Source of the DNA: Chloroflexota bacterium
GTDB taxonomy: Bacteria; Chloroflexota; Anaerolineae; Anaerolineales; Villigracilaceae
Direction of reading: 5' to 3'
NCBI GenBank assembly: GCA_019873655.1
Contig: JAIOAU010000004.1
Location: forward strand, 62,001 to 126,000
Length of the DNA stretch: 64,000 bases
Part shown: positions 1-62,845 of the stretch, piece by piece
Layout of the letters: every line of letters begins with the position of its first letter
Numbering within the stretch: position 1 is the first letter of the stretch
The notes under the pieces: generated by a model
Told to the model about the DNA's origin: nothing
Database searches by the model: none
The model's input: only the letters and a program-made list of their open reading frames with translations
Position numbers and translations under genes: made by a program

Positions 1-2
1 TC

Positions 3-95
3 GCCGCCGTTGAGGGGGACGATATTCAAGAGGCCATCGAAGCCGCGGATGGACAGATGTACCGGATGAAACAGTCCGCGGGGCGGGAGGGGTGA
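3..95 (+). CDS. C-terminal end of a GGDEF-type diguanylate cyclase (partial)
   Basis: This is the last 30 codons of a gene that begins left of the window; the stop is TGA at 93-95. The residues IEAADGQMYRMKQSAGR match the usual end of a GGDEF domain, where an 'ADqAMYrAK.aGRn' helix closes the fold. The role would be synthesis of c-di-GMP, or its binding if the active site is degenerate, but the catalytic GG(D/E)EF loop lies outside the window. The low-GC cassette block begins just downstream. The assignment rests on one short C-terminal motif, so it is moderate in strength. Confidence 0.6.
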   Translation, partial: AAVEGDDIQEAIEAADGQMYRMKQSAGREG

Positions 96-105
96 GGTAA
101 CGCCA

Positions 106-191
106 TTTTAACGGAACTGGCTTGAGCCAAGAAAACTGCCTGAAAACGCGGCACGTACCCGCCAGTCAAGTGCACGCTGTGTTGGGCTGCC
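106..191 (-). repeat. Degenerate attC-like site of cassette B
   Basis: Read on the minus strand the site starts with GGCAGCCCAAC (R'' core GCCCAAC, 187-181), has a short inner inverted repeat of ACTGGC with GCCAGT, and ends at GTTAAAA (112-106), one mismatch from the GTTRRRY core. The inner stem is only 6 bp, so this is a weak or decayed site. Its best support is that R'' is the perfect complement of the start of its own cassette at 770-780. Confidence 0.45.
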
Positions 192-215
192 TTGAGCCTA
201 AAGGACTCTGAATCC

Positions 216-749
216 TCATGGGTAATTTATTATCAATACAAGAATGAATTGTCCAACTCCATACGTTGCAACTCCTAGGGCTAGTAATGTAGCGTGTAGA
301 GTCACGGGTAACTTGAAGAACTTGCTCTCGCGATACTTCTTTCTTACGGCAAGAGCAGCATTAAGCTGTCTTTCCAATTCATTCAGCTTGACTTTCTCAG
401 AAGTTTCGTCATTTGTTCTGAAAACTGTTGCAAGTCGAAGATATGCACGATGGTGTAGTATTCTTTCGATATCCCATTCATTAGATGCTACATCTAGAAT
501 ATGTTTAATCCCAATGACTGCGAATAAAAGCGAAAATACAAGCAAGAGCAGTGCAAGAACTCCTGATATTTGCAACACCTGTGAAGATGAACTTAAAGTG
601 TTGGCGATCCATACAACCGCGGCCAAAGTGATTGTAGTAGTCCATTTCACAAAATCAGTCAGTGTAGTGAGATAAGTCTTTGAAGCTGTCTGTTCAGCTT
701 CGCCATACTTCTCCAAGACATCCAGAATTTTTTGCTCTAACTCTGTCAT
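216..749 (-). CDS. Cassette-borne membrane protein of unknown function
   Basis: A 177-residue protein that I do not recognise. It has a short N-terminal amphipathic region, hydrophobic segments at about residues 36-51 and 58-80, a charged cytosolic-looking middle (about 85-145, rich in Arg, Glu and Lys), and a third hydrophobic segment at about 148-174 close to the C-terminus. The most likely topology is three membrane helices with a soluble central domain. The gene is less GC-rich than the chromosome around it and sits in an integron-like cassette whose ends lie at 779 and about 112. That context suggests accessory or stress-related cargo, but nothing in the sequence shows a specific role. 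Confidence 0.7.
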   Translation of the reverse strand: MTELEQKILDVLEKYGEAEQTASKTYLTTLTDFVKWTTTITLAAVVWIANTLSSSSQVLQISGVLALLLLVFSLLFAVIGIKHILDVASNEWDIERILHHRAYLRLATVFRTNDETSEKVKLNELERQLNAALAVRKKYRESKFFKLPVTLHATLLALGVATYGVGQFILVLIINYP

Positions 750-773
750 GATTCTCTATCTTTCCTTAGGGCA

Positions 774-903
774 GCCCAACGGTAAAGCTGAGCCGCGCCC
801 ACCCGCCGCCGCGAGCAAGACCAACCTGACTGACCGCTGCCCCGCTGGTAGCGCGTCTTGGTTAAAGCGCAAGGGTGGGCGTCGGCTCCAGCGGGTGTTA
901 GCG
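774..903 (-). repeat. attC-like recombination site of cassette A
   Basis: This is a 130-bp imperfect inverted repeat with the order expected of attC. On the minus strand: R'' CGCTAAC (903-897), a 4-nt spacer, an L'' arm (892-873), a variable central part with its own small hairpin (CAAGAC with GTCTTG), an L' arm (804-787), a 6-nt spacer, and R' GTTGGGC (780-774), which fits GTTRRRY. The L arms pair over 18 positions, and the 5' arm carries exactly two extra bases (G and A). They would bulge out as the extrahelical bases typical of folded attC. The length is within the usual 57-141 range. Confidence 0.7.
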
Positions 904-938
904 CGCCATCCAAAAGAATAACCTCATCTGCAACAAGC

Positions 939-1361
939 TTACTCTGCTTCAGCGCCCATGATTACGTTGCGGATTCTCTTTTCCAGACCTTTGGAAACAA
1001 ACTCCGGGTGAATCCACAAATCCTCTGCAGCTACACCTCCCCCCATACCTCCTGTAATACCTTCTCCCAGCTTTCGCCGCTCGTAGTAAATGCCTGCGCC
1101 TTCACCACCATTGCACTCCCAAGCGATTTCATCTAGCTCTGAAAGGAGTTGGTCGAGTGCTTTTTCATCGCATTTGACAAGGTTCACCGGACAAACCAGG
1201 TAGATTTGACCTCCCCAATCTCCTTCCATAACAAGATACGCATCGCCTACAGTTCTTGCCTCTTCGAGACCCTGGAGCGGTTTGTATTCTGTGCCTTCGG
1301 CAGCAGCAACTATGTGGCGTATTGGGCTATGGTGCTCAGGTATGTCTTTGCATTCGAGCAT
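939..1361 (-). CDS. Cassette-borne soluble protein of unknown function
   Basis: A 140-residue protein without signal peptide or membrane helix and not recognised as a known family. Visible traits are an acidic composition, a Gly-rich stretch at about residues 85-110 (including GITGGMGGG) and five Cys residues. The start is supported by a purine-rich AGAGGA upstream of the ATG, about 40 nt inside the cassette start at 1403, which is the usual spacing for an integron cassette gene. The attC-like site begins about 35 bp after the stop codon. Base composition is lower in GC than the chromosomal genes, consistent with transfer. No function can be assigned. Confidence 0.65.
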   Translation of the reverse strand: MLECKDIPEHHSPIRHIVAAAEGTEYKPLQGLEEARTVGDAYLVMEGDWGGQIYLVCPVNLVKCDEKALDQLLSELDEIAWECNGGEGAGIYYERRKLGEGITGGMGGGVAAEDLWIHPEFVSKGLEKRIRNVIMGAEAE

Positions 1362-1431
1362 CTTGTGTTCCTCTGCTTCCTGACTCGTGGATTGGCGCGC
1401 TAACTATGGCTTTAACTGCAACCCAACTTCT

Positions 1432-1496
1432 TAATAGACAGCCAACCCACCATCCTGAGCGCTTGCACGCCAAGGCGCTGAAGGGTGGACTGTCTG
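1432..1496 (-). repeat. attC-like imperfect hairpin upstream of cassette A
   Basis: An imperfect inverted repeat pairs AGACAG with CTGTCT, then CCA/CCC segments and a GCGC stem, with single-base bulges. On the minus strand it is followed by GTTGGGT (1427-1421), which fits GTTRRRY, but no matching R'' box is seen on the far side. It may be a truncated attC left by an earlier cassette. Confidence 0.35.
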
Positions 1497-1499
1497 CTC

Positions 1500-1890
1500 A
1501 CTGAAACCTGAGATTCTTTTTCGATAGCGCGGCTTTCCACTGTCCACAGTATACATACGGATTCCCCTTTTTTCAACAGGGAATTGAGGCTTTCTCTCAG
1601 CAATCGCCATCTCCGGACACTATTACTTGGATGCGACGGATTTGTGGACTTCCAGATCGGCCTTTGCTTTATCCAAAGGAAGGTCGCCAATGCCCTTTCT
1701 GTGCCGCTTTGTTCCTGTCTATGAAATCAAAGGGTCAGCTGGCCAGTCTGGCATCGTGACTGCAGAAAATGTCGTCCATGGAATATTGGGGCATGTTTGA
1801 TATCCTTCTATGAGATAAGTCCACCCGCGCCAAAACTCTAGCATGACGAGCCATCTTTCCCCCGCCAACTTTCTACAGACAGGTCTCCAA
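1500..1890. other. Non-coding or decayed stretch, no gene recognised
   Basis: About 390 bases with no convincing gene on either strand. A minus-strand reading frame at 1412-1690 runs through the attC-like hairpin and has no recognisable domain, so it was not called. The stretch could hold a decayed cassette between the hairpin at 1432-1496 and the tandem repeat that begins at 1899. Confidence 0.4.
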
Positions 1891-1891
1891 A

Positions 1892-2000
1892 CCTGTTATA
1901 ACAGGATGGCAAACGAGTCTTAACAGGATTACAAACGAGTCTTAACAGGATTACAAACGAGTCTTAACAAGATTCCAAAGCAGTTAGAACAGGATTGCCA
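1892..2000. repeat. 22-bp tandem repeat led by a perfect palindrome
   Basis: Units of 22 bp (TAACAGGATTACAAACGAGT plus CT) run head to tail: 1899-1920, 1921-1942, 1943-1964, 1965-1986 and a partial copy at 1987-2000. Copies two and three are identical; the outer ones diverge. The array is preceded by the perfect 14-bp palindrome CCTGTTATAACAGG (1892-1905), whose right half TAACAGG recurs at the head of the following units. There are no unique spacers, so this is not a CRISPR array. Regularly spaced half-sites, two helical turns apart, could bind a protein. Confidence 0.85.
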
Positions 2001-2001
2001 G

Positions 2002-2032
2002 CCTCCCCCAAACGCTTCGCATTTGGGGGAGG
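2002..2032 (-). terminator. Strong hairpin downstream of the HU-like gene
   Basis: An 11-bp perfect stem (CCTCCCCCAAA with TTTGGGGGAGG) and a 9-nt loop lie 29 bp past the stop codon of the HU-like gene. On the minus strand no T-run follows, so it is either an atypical terminator or an mRNA 3'-end stabiliser. Confidence 0.5.
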
Positions 2033-2061
2033 CGTCCGCAGGATGGGAGGGCAGGCGGAGT

Positions 2062-2442
2062 CTACTCCTTCTCGAACTTGATCGTCGCCAGCGCCTTCTT
2101 GAACTCCTTGCCGGCGTTGAAGCGCGGCAGGACGTTCGTGATATTGCTGGCGCGCACCTCCTCGGCGGTGGCGGCGCCGTCGGCCTCGTTCTTCAGCCAG
2201 AAACTGCCGAAATCGCCCAACTCCACGACATTCCCCGCCGCCAGTTCCTGCGGGACGACGGTCAGCAGGGCCTCCAGCACGGCCATCGTGTCGGTGGTGG
2301 ATACGGTGGAGATTTGCGCAATGCGCTCCGCCATTTTCCGCAGGGTCGTGCGTCCGCTGGAGACGATGGATGGGTAATACTTTTTGGGCGCGGCCGGGTT
2401 CGCCGGATTGCCGCGCTCGATAACATTGAATTTCACAGTCAT
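2062..2442 (-). CDS. HU/IHF-family DNA-binding protein with N-terminal extension (HU-HIG type)
   Basis: A 126-residue nucleoid-associated protein, longer than the 90-95 residues of classical HU. The N-terminal ~35 residues (VIERGNPANP, KKYYPS) resemble the extension of the HU-HIG subfamily. The HU core follows: helices 1-2 (about 30-60, TLRKMAERIAQISTVSTTDT), the LGDFGSF turn before the DNA-binding arm, and a C-terminal FNAGKEFKKAL helix. It should bend or bind DNA as a dimer. An AGGAGG-like site precedes the ATG, a strong promoter lies at 2521-2549 on the minus strand, and a hairpin follows the stop, so this is a single-gene unit. Confidence 0.88.
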   Translation of the reverse strand: MTVKFNVIERGNPANPAAPKKYYPSIVSSGRTTLRKMAERIAQISTVSTTDTMAVLEALLTVVPQELAAGNVVELGDFGSFWLKNEADGAATAEEVRASNITNVLPRFNAGKEFKKALATIKFEKE

Positions 2443-2520
2443 CTTTGCCTCCTCACTATGAAACTATTTGGATTGGCAGGGAGAAATACGCTGGCTCAGA
2501 TTTCCCCCTGTCTGTACAAA

Positions 2521-2549
2521 AGTATAACGTAGAGCAGTGGAGAGGTCAA
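2521..2549 (-). promoter_or_regulatory. Sigma-A-type promoter of the HU-like gene
   Basis: On the minus strand TTGACC (2549-2544) is followed by a 17-bp spacer and TATACT (2526-2521). The start codon is about 80 nt downstream. Confidence 0.75.
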
Positions 2550-2571
2550 GACATCTCGACCTGCGCGGCCT

Positions 2572-3288
2572 TCATCCCCTCTCCCAGACGGCCAGGATGG
2601 AGCGCCCGAAGGTATAGCGCGTCAGCCAGTCGCTCAGACGGGTCAGCGGCGTCAGGCAACGGTCCCAGAACAGGATTTGCCGGCGGCTGGGCATGGATTG
2701 GCGCAGGAGACTGCGATTGGCCAGGGAGAGAAAGAAGCCGAGCGAATCGAGGTAACGCAGCAAGACCAGACGCGTGCGAGGCGGAGCGAGGGCCTGCAGG
2801 GTGGAACGCGTGTAGCGGCGGTAGTGGCCGATGGCGCGGTCGAAGGGACTGTAGAGGGCCGGGCAGGCGGGGGCCAGGACGATGAGATGGCCGCCGGGGA
2901 ACAGGCGGGCCGCCGCCCGCTCGAGTTCGGCGCGGTCGTCTTCAATGTGCTCGAGGACGTCCACGTAGAGGATGGCGTCGAAACGCGCCGAAGCGGGCAG
3001 GTCTTGCAACGCGCCGGGGACGGCGCGGCAGCAGGACGGCAGGCTCGAGGTCCGAATGCGCTCCTCGATGCGCGCCAGCAGGCGCGGGTCCGGTTCGAGA
3101 CACCACCATTCCTGCTCGCGCCCGGAGCAGAGGGCAGCGGTCGTCGCCCCCAGGCCGGCGCCGACCTCCAGCACGCGCCCGGCGAGGTAGGGACGCAGGA
3201 AACGGCCAAAGTAAGCCTTCCAGCGCACCGCTTCGGCAAAGATATCCAGTTCACCGCCGAGGTAGGATTGGGCGTTCAGGATTCCCAT
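2572..3288 (-). CDS. Class I SAM-dependent methyltransferase
   Basis: A 238-residue protein. The SAM-binding glycine loop VLEVGAGLGATT is at about residues 39-50, the acidic end of strand beta2 (CLEPD) at about 63-67, and the post-motif-I region (ILYVDVLEHIEDD) near 103-115. The last marks the type of methyltransferase found in sugar and lipid modification clusters. The ATG at 3286-3288 overlaps the end of the preceding glycosyltransferase gene by 13 bp, so the two are translationally coupled. A longer upstream reading frame exists but would run through that glycosyltransferase gene, so this internal ATG is preferred. The substrate is probably a glycolipid or polyprenyl-linked sugar, from context only. 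Confidence 0.82.
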   Translation of the reverse strand: MGILNAQSYLGGELDIFAEAVRWKAYFGRFLRPYLAGRVLEVGAGLGATTAALCSGREQEWWCLEPDPRLLARIEERIRTSSLPSCCRAVPGALQDLPASARFDAILYVDVLEHIEDDRAELERAAARLFPGGHLIVLAPACPALYSPFDRAIGHYRRYTRSTLQALAPPRTRLVLLRYLDSLGFFLSLANRSLLRQSMPSRRQILFWDRCLTPLTRLSDWLTRYTFGRSILAVWERG

Positions 3289-6889: not shown

Positions 6890-7567
6890 TTAAGTTTTCT
6901 TGCGCAGATAGATCACCAGACCAACGACACCGGCCGTCAGCAGGACGCCCAGGCACAGACAACACAAGGCCCCGACCAGCCACCAAACCCATTCGGAGGG
7001 TTGAGTCGAACTGGTAGCCAGAATGATGTTCCGCCCGTTTTCGTCGAGGCGCCAGGTCAGGGTGCGGCCGGCGCGGGCGTCTGCATTCGTGACCGAGACC
7101 GCCCCCGGCGTGGTCAGGCGAAAGACCGCTTCGATAGGATAGGAACTCTGGTCTTGCAAGCCCTCCAGGTCCCAGGTCAGGTCGCAGTAGAAGGTCTCGT
7201 TGACGATCTCCAGCCGGTCAACGTCCATGCTGAGGACATCTTCATAAACATCCTTCAACTGTCTCAAATTGGAGAAAGGCACATCCACGAGACACCAGAT
7301 TTGGGCGCCGCGCCTTTCGACGCGAAGGGTTGCGCCGGGAGGCAAGTCTTCGGCGATGCGTTCTTCATACCAGATGTCTTCGCAGAAAGCCATCGCCGAG
7401 ACCGGTTCATCCCACCAGTCCTCCAATTCTTCGGCGGTGTAACCGATTTCGACGCGCAAATTCCCGCTGCCATTCGCCTGGACATTCGTGTTGAAGTTCA
7501 AATTGCAGGCGCTCAAGGCCAGAGCAAGAAGGAGACCGCCCACCCACCAGAGTTTTCGCTTGTGCAT
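6890..7567 (-). CDS. Paralogous membrane-anchored lipoprotein with LppM-like domain
   Basis: A 225-residue paralogue of the downstream gene, sharing order and motifs: lipobox LALSAC, NVQANGSGNLRVEIGYTAEE, a central Cys-containing LV/IAEMPFS-type strand, a TPGAVSVTNADARAGRTLTW segment matching the neighbour's TPGRITSHNAHAVDGRTLTW, and a C-terminal helix with RKK. The copies look like an old tandem duplication. Both would sit on the outer face of the membrane with lipid and helix anchors. An AAAGGAAA ribosome site precedes the ATG, and TATACAAT about 45 nt upstream may be a -10 box. Confidence 0.78.
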   Translation of the reverse strand: MHKRKLWWVGGLLLALALSACNLNFNTNVQANGSGNLRVEIGYTAEELEDWWDEPVSAMAFCEDIWYEERIAEDLPPGATLRVERRGAQIWCLVDVPFSNLRQLKDVYEDVLSMDVDRLEIVNETFYCDLTWDLEGLQDQSSYPIEAVFRLTTPGAVSVTNADARAGRTLTWRLDENGRNIILATSSTQPSEWVWWLVGALCCLCLGVLLTAGVVGLVIYLRKKT

Positions 7568-61780: not shown

Positions 61781-62845
61781 GTGTCTGCCGAACTAACGCG
61801 AACCATCAAAGAAGAAGCCCGCCGGCTGGGATTCCCGCTGGCGGGCGTCACTACGCCCGATCCGCCGCCCCATTGGCCGGTCTATGAACGCTGGCTGGCG
61901 ATGGGACGGCACGCTTCTATGAACTACTTGGCGGGCGAACGCGCCCGCGCCTGCCGCCGCGACCCGCGCCAGATACTCCCCGAATGCCGCTCCATCCTCG
62001 TCCTGGGCATTCCCTACCCGCCGCCGTCGGTCGCCCCGCCCGCCGAAGAAGACGGGCCTCCGCGCGGCCGGGTCGCCTCCTATGCCTGGGGCCAGGACTA
62101 CCACCTCGTCCTGCCGGAGCGGCTGCGCGCCCTGGTCGCCTTCATCGAGGCGCAGGCCGGAGGTCCGCTGCCGCACCGCATCTACACCGATACCGTCCCG
62201 CTCCTCGAGCGCGACCTAGCCCAGCGCGCCGGCCTGGGCTGGATCGGCAAGAACACCTGCCTCATCAACCCGCGCTTCGGCTCGACCTTCTTCCTGGCCG
62301 AAATCCTGCTCGGCCTCGACCTGGAACCCGACCCGCCCTTCGAGGCCGACCGCTGCGGAACCTGTCGGCGCTGCATCGAAGCCTGCCCCACCGGCTGCAT
62401 CCTGCCCGACCGCACCCTCGATGCCCGCGCCTGCATCTCTTACCTGACCATCGAAAACAAAGGCGAGATTCCGGAACGCCTGCGGCCGGCGCTTGGCGAG
62501 TGGGTCTTCGGCTGCGACATCTGTCAGGCCGTCTGCCCCTGGAACCGCTTCGCCCCGCCCGAGGTGGACCCGGCCTTCGCCCCCCTCCCCGGCCTGCCGC
62601 GCCCCGACCTGATCGCCGCCCTGAACCTCGACCCGCAGACCTTCAACCGCCAGTTCAAGACCAGCCCGATTCAGCGCGCCCGCCGGCGCGGCTACCGGCG
62701 CAACGCCGCCGTGGCGCTGGGCAACCTCGGCCGCGCCGAGGCCATCCCGGCGCTCGCCCAGGCCTGTCAGGACGAGGACGCCCTCGTCCGCGCCCACGCC
62801 GCCTGGAGCCTCGAACGAATCCACACAACCCAGAGCGATCCATGA
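61781..62845 (+). CDS. queG: Epoxyqueuosine reductase
   Basis: A 354-residue cobalamin- and iron-sulfur-dependent enzyme that makes queuosine from epoxyqueuosine in tRNA. The N-terminal DUF1730 half includes YTDTVPLLERDLAQRAGLGW and GKNTCLINP. Two 4Fe-4S clusters are carried by CGTCRRCIEACPTGCI and CDICQAVCPWN. The C-terminal HEAT-like helices (LGNLGRAEAIPALAQACQDE) bind tRNA. The start is GTG at 61781, 2 bp after the preceding stop, with no separate ribosome site; translation is probably coupled. Its stop overlaps the rdgB ATG. Confidence 0.94.
   Translation: MSAELTRTIKEEARRLGFPLAGVTTPDPPPHWPVYERWLAMGRHASMNYLAGERARACRRDPRQILPECRSILVLGIPYPPPSVAPPAEEDGPPRGRVASYAWGQDYHLVLPERLRALVAFIEAQAGGPLPHRIYTDTVPLLERDLAQRAGLGWIGKNTCLINPRFGSTFFLAEILLGLDLEPDPPFEADRCGTCRRCIEACPTGCILPDRTLDARACISYLTIENKGEIPERLRPALGEWVFGCDICQAVCPWNRFAPPEVDPAFAPLPGLPRPDLIAALNLDPQTFNRQFKTSPIQRARRRGYRRNAAVALGNLGRAEAIPALAQACQDEDALVRAHAAWSLERIHTTQSDP

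Follow-up and report, generated by a model that had tools for sequence, protein, structure and literature searches.

The window analysed here is a stretch of 64,000 nucleotides (positions 62,001 to 126,000) of a 206-kb contig, C4, belonging to a genome (G000) of 3.04 Mb in 45 contigs. It contains a short array of two genes, hereafter A and B, which are found, like the attC sites, on the minus strand, so that the array begins at 1404, runs leftwards and finishes near 106. One complete attC, one truncated attC and one remnant of attI make up its recombination sites. From the head of the array to its end, and starting upstream of it, the features are as follows.

1649-1747, plus strand: end remnant of a multi-copy, mobile-element-like repeat (82% identity to a terminus of about 111 bp)
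1548-1576, minus strand: promoter-like TTGAAA-17-TATACT, a candidate remnant of the cassette promoter Pc by consensus match only, pointing into the array
1402-1457, minus strand: cassette-side part of attI by nhmmer profiles, with the recombination point between G and TT at 1404/1403
780-1403, minus strand: cassette A in its linear form, from the attI cut point to the attC_A cut point (12-bp own-end complementarity and complete attC)
939-1361, minus strand: cassette gene A, an open reading frame of 140 aa with no family assigned
774-903, minus strand: attC_A, complete (R'' 903-897, extrahelical G 888/889 and A 882, R' 780-774)
106-779, minus strand: cassette B in its present state, its distal end lost (11-bp own-end complementarity and truncated attC)
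216-749, minus strand: cassette gene B, an open reading frame of 177 aa with no family assigned
106-187, minus strand: attC_B, truncated, with R'' and L'' kept and L' and R' absent (alignment with six complete attC of relatives)

The array is adjoined by a gene for an HU-HIG type DNA-binding protein (2062-2442; PF18291, E = 1.5e-27), with relatives in eight of 41 genomes, its own included, and a 22-bp tandem repeat of 3.7 copies occupies positions 1886-1996, with similar stretches on contigs C3, C5, C18 and C30. Scanning the window at the Rfam gathering thresholds returned two tRNAs and nothing else. Two further genes beside the array encode a GGDEF protein and a glycosyltransferase, and both were found in their own genome only (41 genomes searched at E <= 1e-60 for the former, three genomes at E <= 1e-30 for the latter), so that there is no empty or ancestral site with which the locus can be compared.

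Candidate attC sites were collected by a simple stem scan beside intI, the integrase gene, in 80 named loci and in other relatives. As a control, the two sides of intI were compared: the attI side yielded 39 sites in 180.6 kb, the opposite side four in 385.4 kb. Of these 39 sites of relatives, 24 were used to train a covariance model (R1), which contains no sequence from the window; in its training sites 95 cells were changed on both sides, versus a mean of 34.7 after shuffling and with none of 500 shuffles reaching 95, a covariation to be read with the caveat that the 24 sites had been picked by stem score. R1 matched the middle site of the array (904-774, minus strand) with 40.1 bits and an E-value of 9.2e-10 in the window, the second-best score in the whole genome after a site on contig C43 (51.6 bits). 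The two extrahelical bases that had been noticed on one arm of this site were recovered on the minus strand in the L'' arm, in the same places as in the family alignment (A2). Its R' box, GTTGGGC, fits GTTRRRY, and its R'' box, CGCTAAC, departs from RYYYAAC but pairs with the start of its own cassette; because of this departure, the site escaped an initial stem scan that required strict R boxes. A stem scan independent of R1 placed attC_A best in the 64 kb, with a score of 17.6, ahead of 13.8 for the runner-up and of 14.4, the highest value in the reversed sequence. The relaxed version of the scan, which gave 22 rows scoring at least 11 in the forward and 24 in the reversed sequence, was no better than chance by count and was therefore used for choosing candidates only. 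Folding energy relative to shuffled sequences did not separate the sites either (z on the two strands of -1.60 and -0.54 for the middle site, and of +1.08 and -0.20 for the left one), so that the attC call is based on the covariance model, by which the middle site is a genuine attC. A preliminary description of this DNA had taken the two genes for gene cassettes with attC architecture, a claim open to refutation by covariance scores below threshold at all three sites; the middle site passes R1, a model built here, and the claim stands.

The left site presents a different picture. Positions 187-106 (minus strand) align with the attC of six relatives, each of about 130 bp, over the R''/L'' half to about column 80, where the alignment ends. 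R1 gave 16 bits and an E-value of 0.009 solely as a match cut by the window edge; the site was absent from the genome-wide R1 hits at E <= 10, and no full R1 match was obtained with filters off. Judged from this alignment, the left attC has lost its 3' half.

In both cassettes the start pairs with the cassette's own R'' box, a rule that the preliminary description had invoked. The ends of cassette A, GTTAGCGCGCCA (897-908) and TGGCGCGCTAAC (1393-1404), are complementary at 12 of 12 positions, where 11 bp had been reported, and those of cassette B, GTTGGGCTGCC (181-191) and GGCAGCCCAAC (770-780), at 11 of 11, extending to 16 nt at 88%. Among 16 reference pairs, each formed by two scan sites next to each other in an integron locus of a relative and some of them involving sites suspected to be false, own ends paired over 7-12 bp in ten and over 3-5 bp in six, and thus the 12 and 11 bp seen here are normal for cassettes.

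Neither cassette gene could be placed in a known family. For gene A no relative was found in Pfam, NCBIfam, PADLOC, PHROGs, plasmids, IMG/VR or PDB sequences, and a single-sequence structure prediction reached a mean pLDDT of 53.5. The product of gene B has hydrophobic stretches resembling, by eye, about three membrane helices, and searches of Pfam, NCBIfam, PADLOC, PHROGs, plasmids and IMG/VR gave weak or sub-threshold matches at most, the best of them to one PHROG of unknown function (E = 0.0032; 0.1 in Pfam and 0.078 in NCBIfam). A search of the other 149 relatives at E <= 1e-5 recovered neither of the two. Conservation of both genes in place without the inverted repeats, which would speak against cassettes, was consequently not seen, nor could it have been.

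Three attC sites had been proposed, of which the middle one stands as complete, the left one as truncated, and the right-hand one proves to be a remnant of attI. As a third attC the right-hand site was rejected, for R1 matched nothing at that place, even when run without filters. Profiles of relatives' attI gave window positions 1402-1457 as the top nhmmer hit of the 64 kb, with an E-value of 0.00057 when the attI of contig C34, which adjoins the genome's own integrase gene, was included, and of 0.004 (four sequences) and 0.0014 (six sequences) without it, the site still being the top hit; scaled to the 3.04-Mb genome these E-values are modest, at about 0.03 to 0.2. Between 51 and 63 profile positions match, all of them in the cassette-side half. 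A 22-nt core taken from relatives' attI fits the predicted cut point with two mismatches, and no other place in the window lies within five. The end of C34 carries a near-identical terminal sequence in the same orientation, with one mismatch in the last 18 nt and more beyond, and an 18-nt pattern made from the window site and the C34 attI occurs, free of mismatches, at those two places of the genome alone, which shows the absence of a third copy and no more. A broad attI model (R2), built from 11 sequences, left the window site unreported even at E = 10, and the R' box at 1404, GTTAGCG, departs from GTTRRRY. Taken on sequence, the right-hand site is the cassette-side part of an attI resembling the one beside the genome's own integrase. 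The promoter-like TTGAAA-17-TATACT (1576-1548, minus strand), found once in 381 bp where 0.2 were expected in shuffles, lies 146 bp from the cut point; the same distance measures 105-144 bp at seven similar sites, 80 at one with a partial attI, and 179 at another. We regard it as a candidate remnant of the cassette promoter Pc.

The array had also been described as lacking an integrase. Beside it none is recognisable: the best match of the genome's own IntI to window positions 1-3000 by tblastn had an E-value of 0.88, and a panel of 14 IntI gave no match at E <= 0.05 to the 1600 bp on the integrase side of attI. The same genome, however, does encode a full IntI on C34 (163-1305; TIGR02249, 439.6 bits versus a cut-off of 265), the nearest named relatives of which come from Anaerolineales MAGs, and this bears out the origin in Chloroflexota that had been proposed. 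The match of the IntI profile breaks off near position 228-230 in the C34 protein and in those of four relatives (G001, G007, G013 and G015); in C34 the gap corresponds to a proline-rich repeat (QTPQPANV...) ahead of the C-terminal part. The C34 integron shares its attI core with the window, and presumably its integrase specificity, and differs in having an intact intI and cassettes that lie beyond the contig end; C34 stops right at the junction of attI and cassettes.

Two further arrays are indicated in this genome, partly by weak hits that were counted because they cluster in one orientation. Three R1 hits fall within the first 2000 positions of C43 (E-values of 2.1e-11, 0.073 and 0.67), and four on C1 at about 67.5-72.0 kb (E-values from 0.0021 to 6.7), with a fifth when the local stretch was searched. 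The boxes of the C1 array (about 67.5-72.7 kb) are degenerate; by eye, it begins without attI, and an mraZ-like gene lies close to where it stops. On C43 the start of the array adjoins the end of the multi-copy repeat. The terminus of this repeat, to which window positions 1649-1747 are similar, occurs at the ends of five contigs, each differing beyond it; in its distribution it behaves as a mobile element would, and we call it mobile-element-like.

Integrons are widespread among the relatives. An intI above the family cut-off was found in 33 of 61 genomes, the present one included (34 of 61 at E <= 1e-60), and R1 attC hits at E <= 0.001 in 50 of 61, namely in 32 of the 34 genomes with intI and in 18 of the 27 without it. 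One of the assemblies, G010, consists of a single contig, in which six attC hits were obtained and intI had no match at E <= 1e-60. Numerous attC hits at E <= 0.001, with up to 54 candidates scored per genome, were obtained in G035 (at least 40), G029 and G053 (at least 32 each) and G004 (at least 27), the last of which likewise lacks an intI match at E <= 1e-60.

With R2, 25 attI hits at E <= 0.01 were obtained in the 61 genomes. Ten lie beside intI, five of these being training sequences of the model, and 13 have no intI on that side; the remaining two are on contig C38 of G004, with a broken IntI, and on contig C64 of G022 (locus L163), which was left uncounted because the contig starts inside attI. 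As R2 finds attI beside ten of 44 intI matches, and thus sees only part of all attI sites, and as all its training sites adjoin intI, 13 of 25 is not a rate. Although most of these genomes are in many fragments, an intact locus has the start of intI close to its attI, and each of the 13 orphan sites retains 514 bp or more of sequence on the integrase side. Eight of them match most of R2 and five only part (L162, L167, L170, L172 and L174). The boundary motif GTTRRRY is exact in L166, L167, L168 and L170, nearly so in L172 and L174, beyond the contig end in L159-L161, and absent from L162, L164, L165 and L169. Run on 16 of 17 stretches, R1 placed attC beyond L166, L168, L170 and L172 (one each), L174 (three) and the uncounted L163 (four); the attC of L168 is more than 5 kb away with a 41-residue IntI fragment in between, and the first one of L174 is 3 kb away. 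A single genome, G022, holds four copies of a promoter plus attI without intI (L159-L162, on contigs C96, C259, C255 and C217), the last of them partial, which are pairwise 79-90% identical over 65-144 bp and whose flanks do not align. These data point to Anaerolineales as an order rich in integrons, in which attI without an adjoining intI is found repeatedly.

We consider that the locus is probably, at a rough probability of 0.7, what is left of a second integron platform, from which intI has gone while the attI core and two cassettes of no assigned family stayed. The attI core is joined directly to cassette A at the normal recombination point. Under this reading, cassettes A and B would have been captured at the window attI by IntI, and intI would have been deleted later together with the integrase-side part of attI, possibly through a rearrangement with the mobile-element-like repeat, whose end would survive at 1649-1747; the distal end of the array, next to the GGDEF gene, would have been lost as well. 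Having both the attI core and a complete attC, cassette A could still be open to excision, and perhaps to replacement, by the C34 IntI acting in trans, whereas cassette B would no longer be excisable by the normal route. The broken IntI of G004 (C38, L171, about 7277-7480) looks like a snapshot, perhaps, of such a loss under way: some 40 residues from the C-terminus of IntI, detected by tblastn, follow a stretch of about 20 residues resembling the N-terminus by eye, the sequence contains a stop, and a promoter and attI adjoin it. Against loss of intI count the four G022 copies, which have unrelated flanks and no remnant of intI, and an intI may never have been present at the window spot.

The last point leads to the strongest competing account, in which the locus would be a platform in current use that needs no intI of its own, the C34 IntI inserting and removing its cassettes in trans. 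The 13 R2 hits without adjoining intI and the repeated promoter-plus-attI copies of G022 favour it, as do the attC beyond five of those 13 sites and beyond the uncounted G022 contig (where the integrase side is not seen), and promoters matching at least 10 of 12 positions in ten of 15 sites (the 13, the G004 site and the window) versus 2.7% of random pieces. What makes it unlikely in our view is that the integrase-side attI has gone or can no longer be recognised and that the distal attC is truncated, both of which look like decay, and that the array was assembled unbroken inside a 206-kb contig and hence gives no sign of cassette turnover. Capture of both cassettes at a chance secondary site, with an accidental resemblance to attI, is among three origins proposed in the review PMC8618304 for CALINs (clusters of attC sites without an integron integrase), and the modest attI E-values, the failure of R2 to report the site and the C1 array starting, by eye, without attI would agree with it; we hold it improbable, since the 22-nt attI core has a single match in the window, which falls right on the predicted cut point and within a longer match.

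Two readings would deny the array an existence of its own at this place. Were it the cassette part of the C34 integron, joined wrongly in assembly or binning, the abrupt end of C34 at the attI/cassette junction would be accounted for, and such breaks are frequent in MAG contigs (on the attI side, 39 of 80 integrase loci reach the contig end within 700 bp of intI, versus 3 of 80 on the other). The window locus nevertheless lies inside its 206-kb contig with its own attI, the sequence of which differs from that of C34, so that no exact long repeat explains a wrong join, and we think an artefact very improbable. It is not unusual to meet inverted repeats of 10-12 bp in 3 kb of sequence, and they might by chance surround two unrelated genes, yet the covariance score, the extrahelical bases and the attI core all coincide with the repeat ends; this leaves coincidence with a negligible share of our belief, and for the middle site it stands refuted.

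Loss of intI from a real platform, the reading we prefer, is like off-target capture one of the three CALIN origins proposed in PMC8618304, and the retained attI speaks for the former. The two are hard to tell apart in general because IntegronFinder 2 is described as detecting attI only for class 1 integrons (PMC9024848). Draft genomes are said to inflate CALIN counts (PMC9024848), which does not explain the window locus given its place inside a 206-kb contig. Like a CALIN, the locus has cassettes with attC, no adjoining intI, and an intI elsewhere in the genome; unlike one, it has one complete and one truncated attC, where the IntegronFinder 2 default is two attC sites (PMC9024848), and keeps an attI core. 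From a complete integron it differs in lacking an adjacent intI behind the partial attI at the head of the array. The closest parallel is the CALIN of the Shewanella prophage M16-3 (PMC9892861), where attI also heads an array without intI and a complete integron is present in the same genome; there, the prophage carries both, while the window belongs to a chromosomal contig of an Anaerolineales member, with a partial attI and a truncated last attC. The dispersed CALINs of Xanthomonas (PMC12444791) likewise lie away from the intI locus of one genome, in a different phylum. CALINs have been said to be usable in trans (PMC9668308, PMC12444791).

The earlier remark that few such arrays are described from this phylum is half true, in that the review PMC8618304 lists Chloroflexota among integron phyla, and the frequencies of intI and attC given above point the same way. 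Judged from its sites, the locus is a known kind of element, in which the retention of attI bears on how an array without integrase arose, and any novelty may lie in the recurrence of integrase-free attI in Anaerolineales; neither this recurrence nor multi-copy orphan attI was found in print among open-licence PMC papers searched with exact terms. The related genomes hint that docking sites without their enzyme are not rare in this order. Going further, and tentatively, promoter-plus-attI modules without intI might be regular and in places multi-copy docks of Anaerolineales, spread as a unit of about 110-145 bp or left behind by loss of intI, with a single distant IntI acting on them in trans; the window locus would then be one of them, partly decayed. 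In G022, two contigs end exactly at the end of attI and a third inside it, as if a repeat had broken the assembly.
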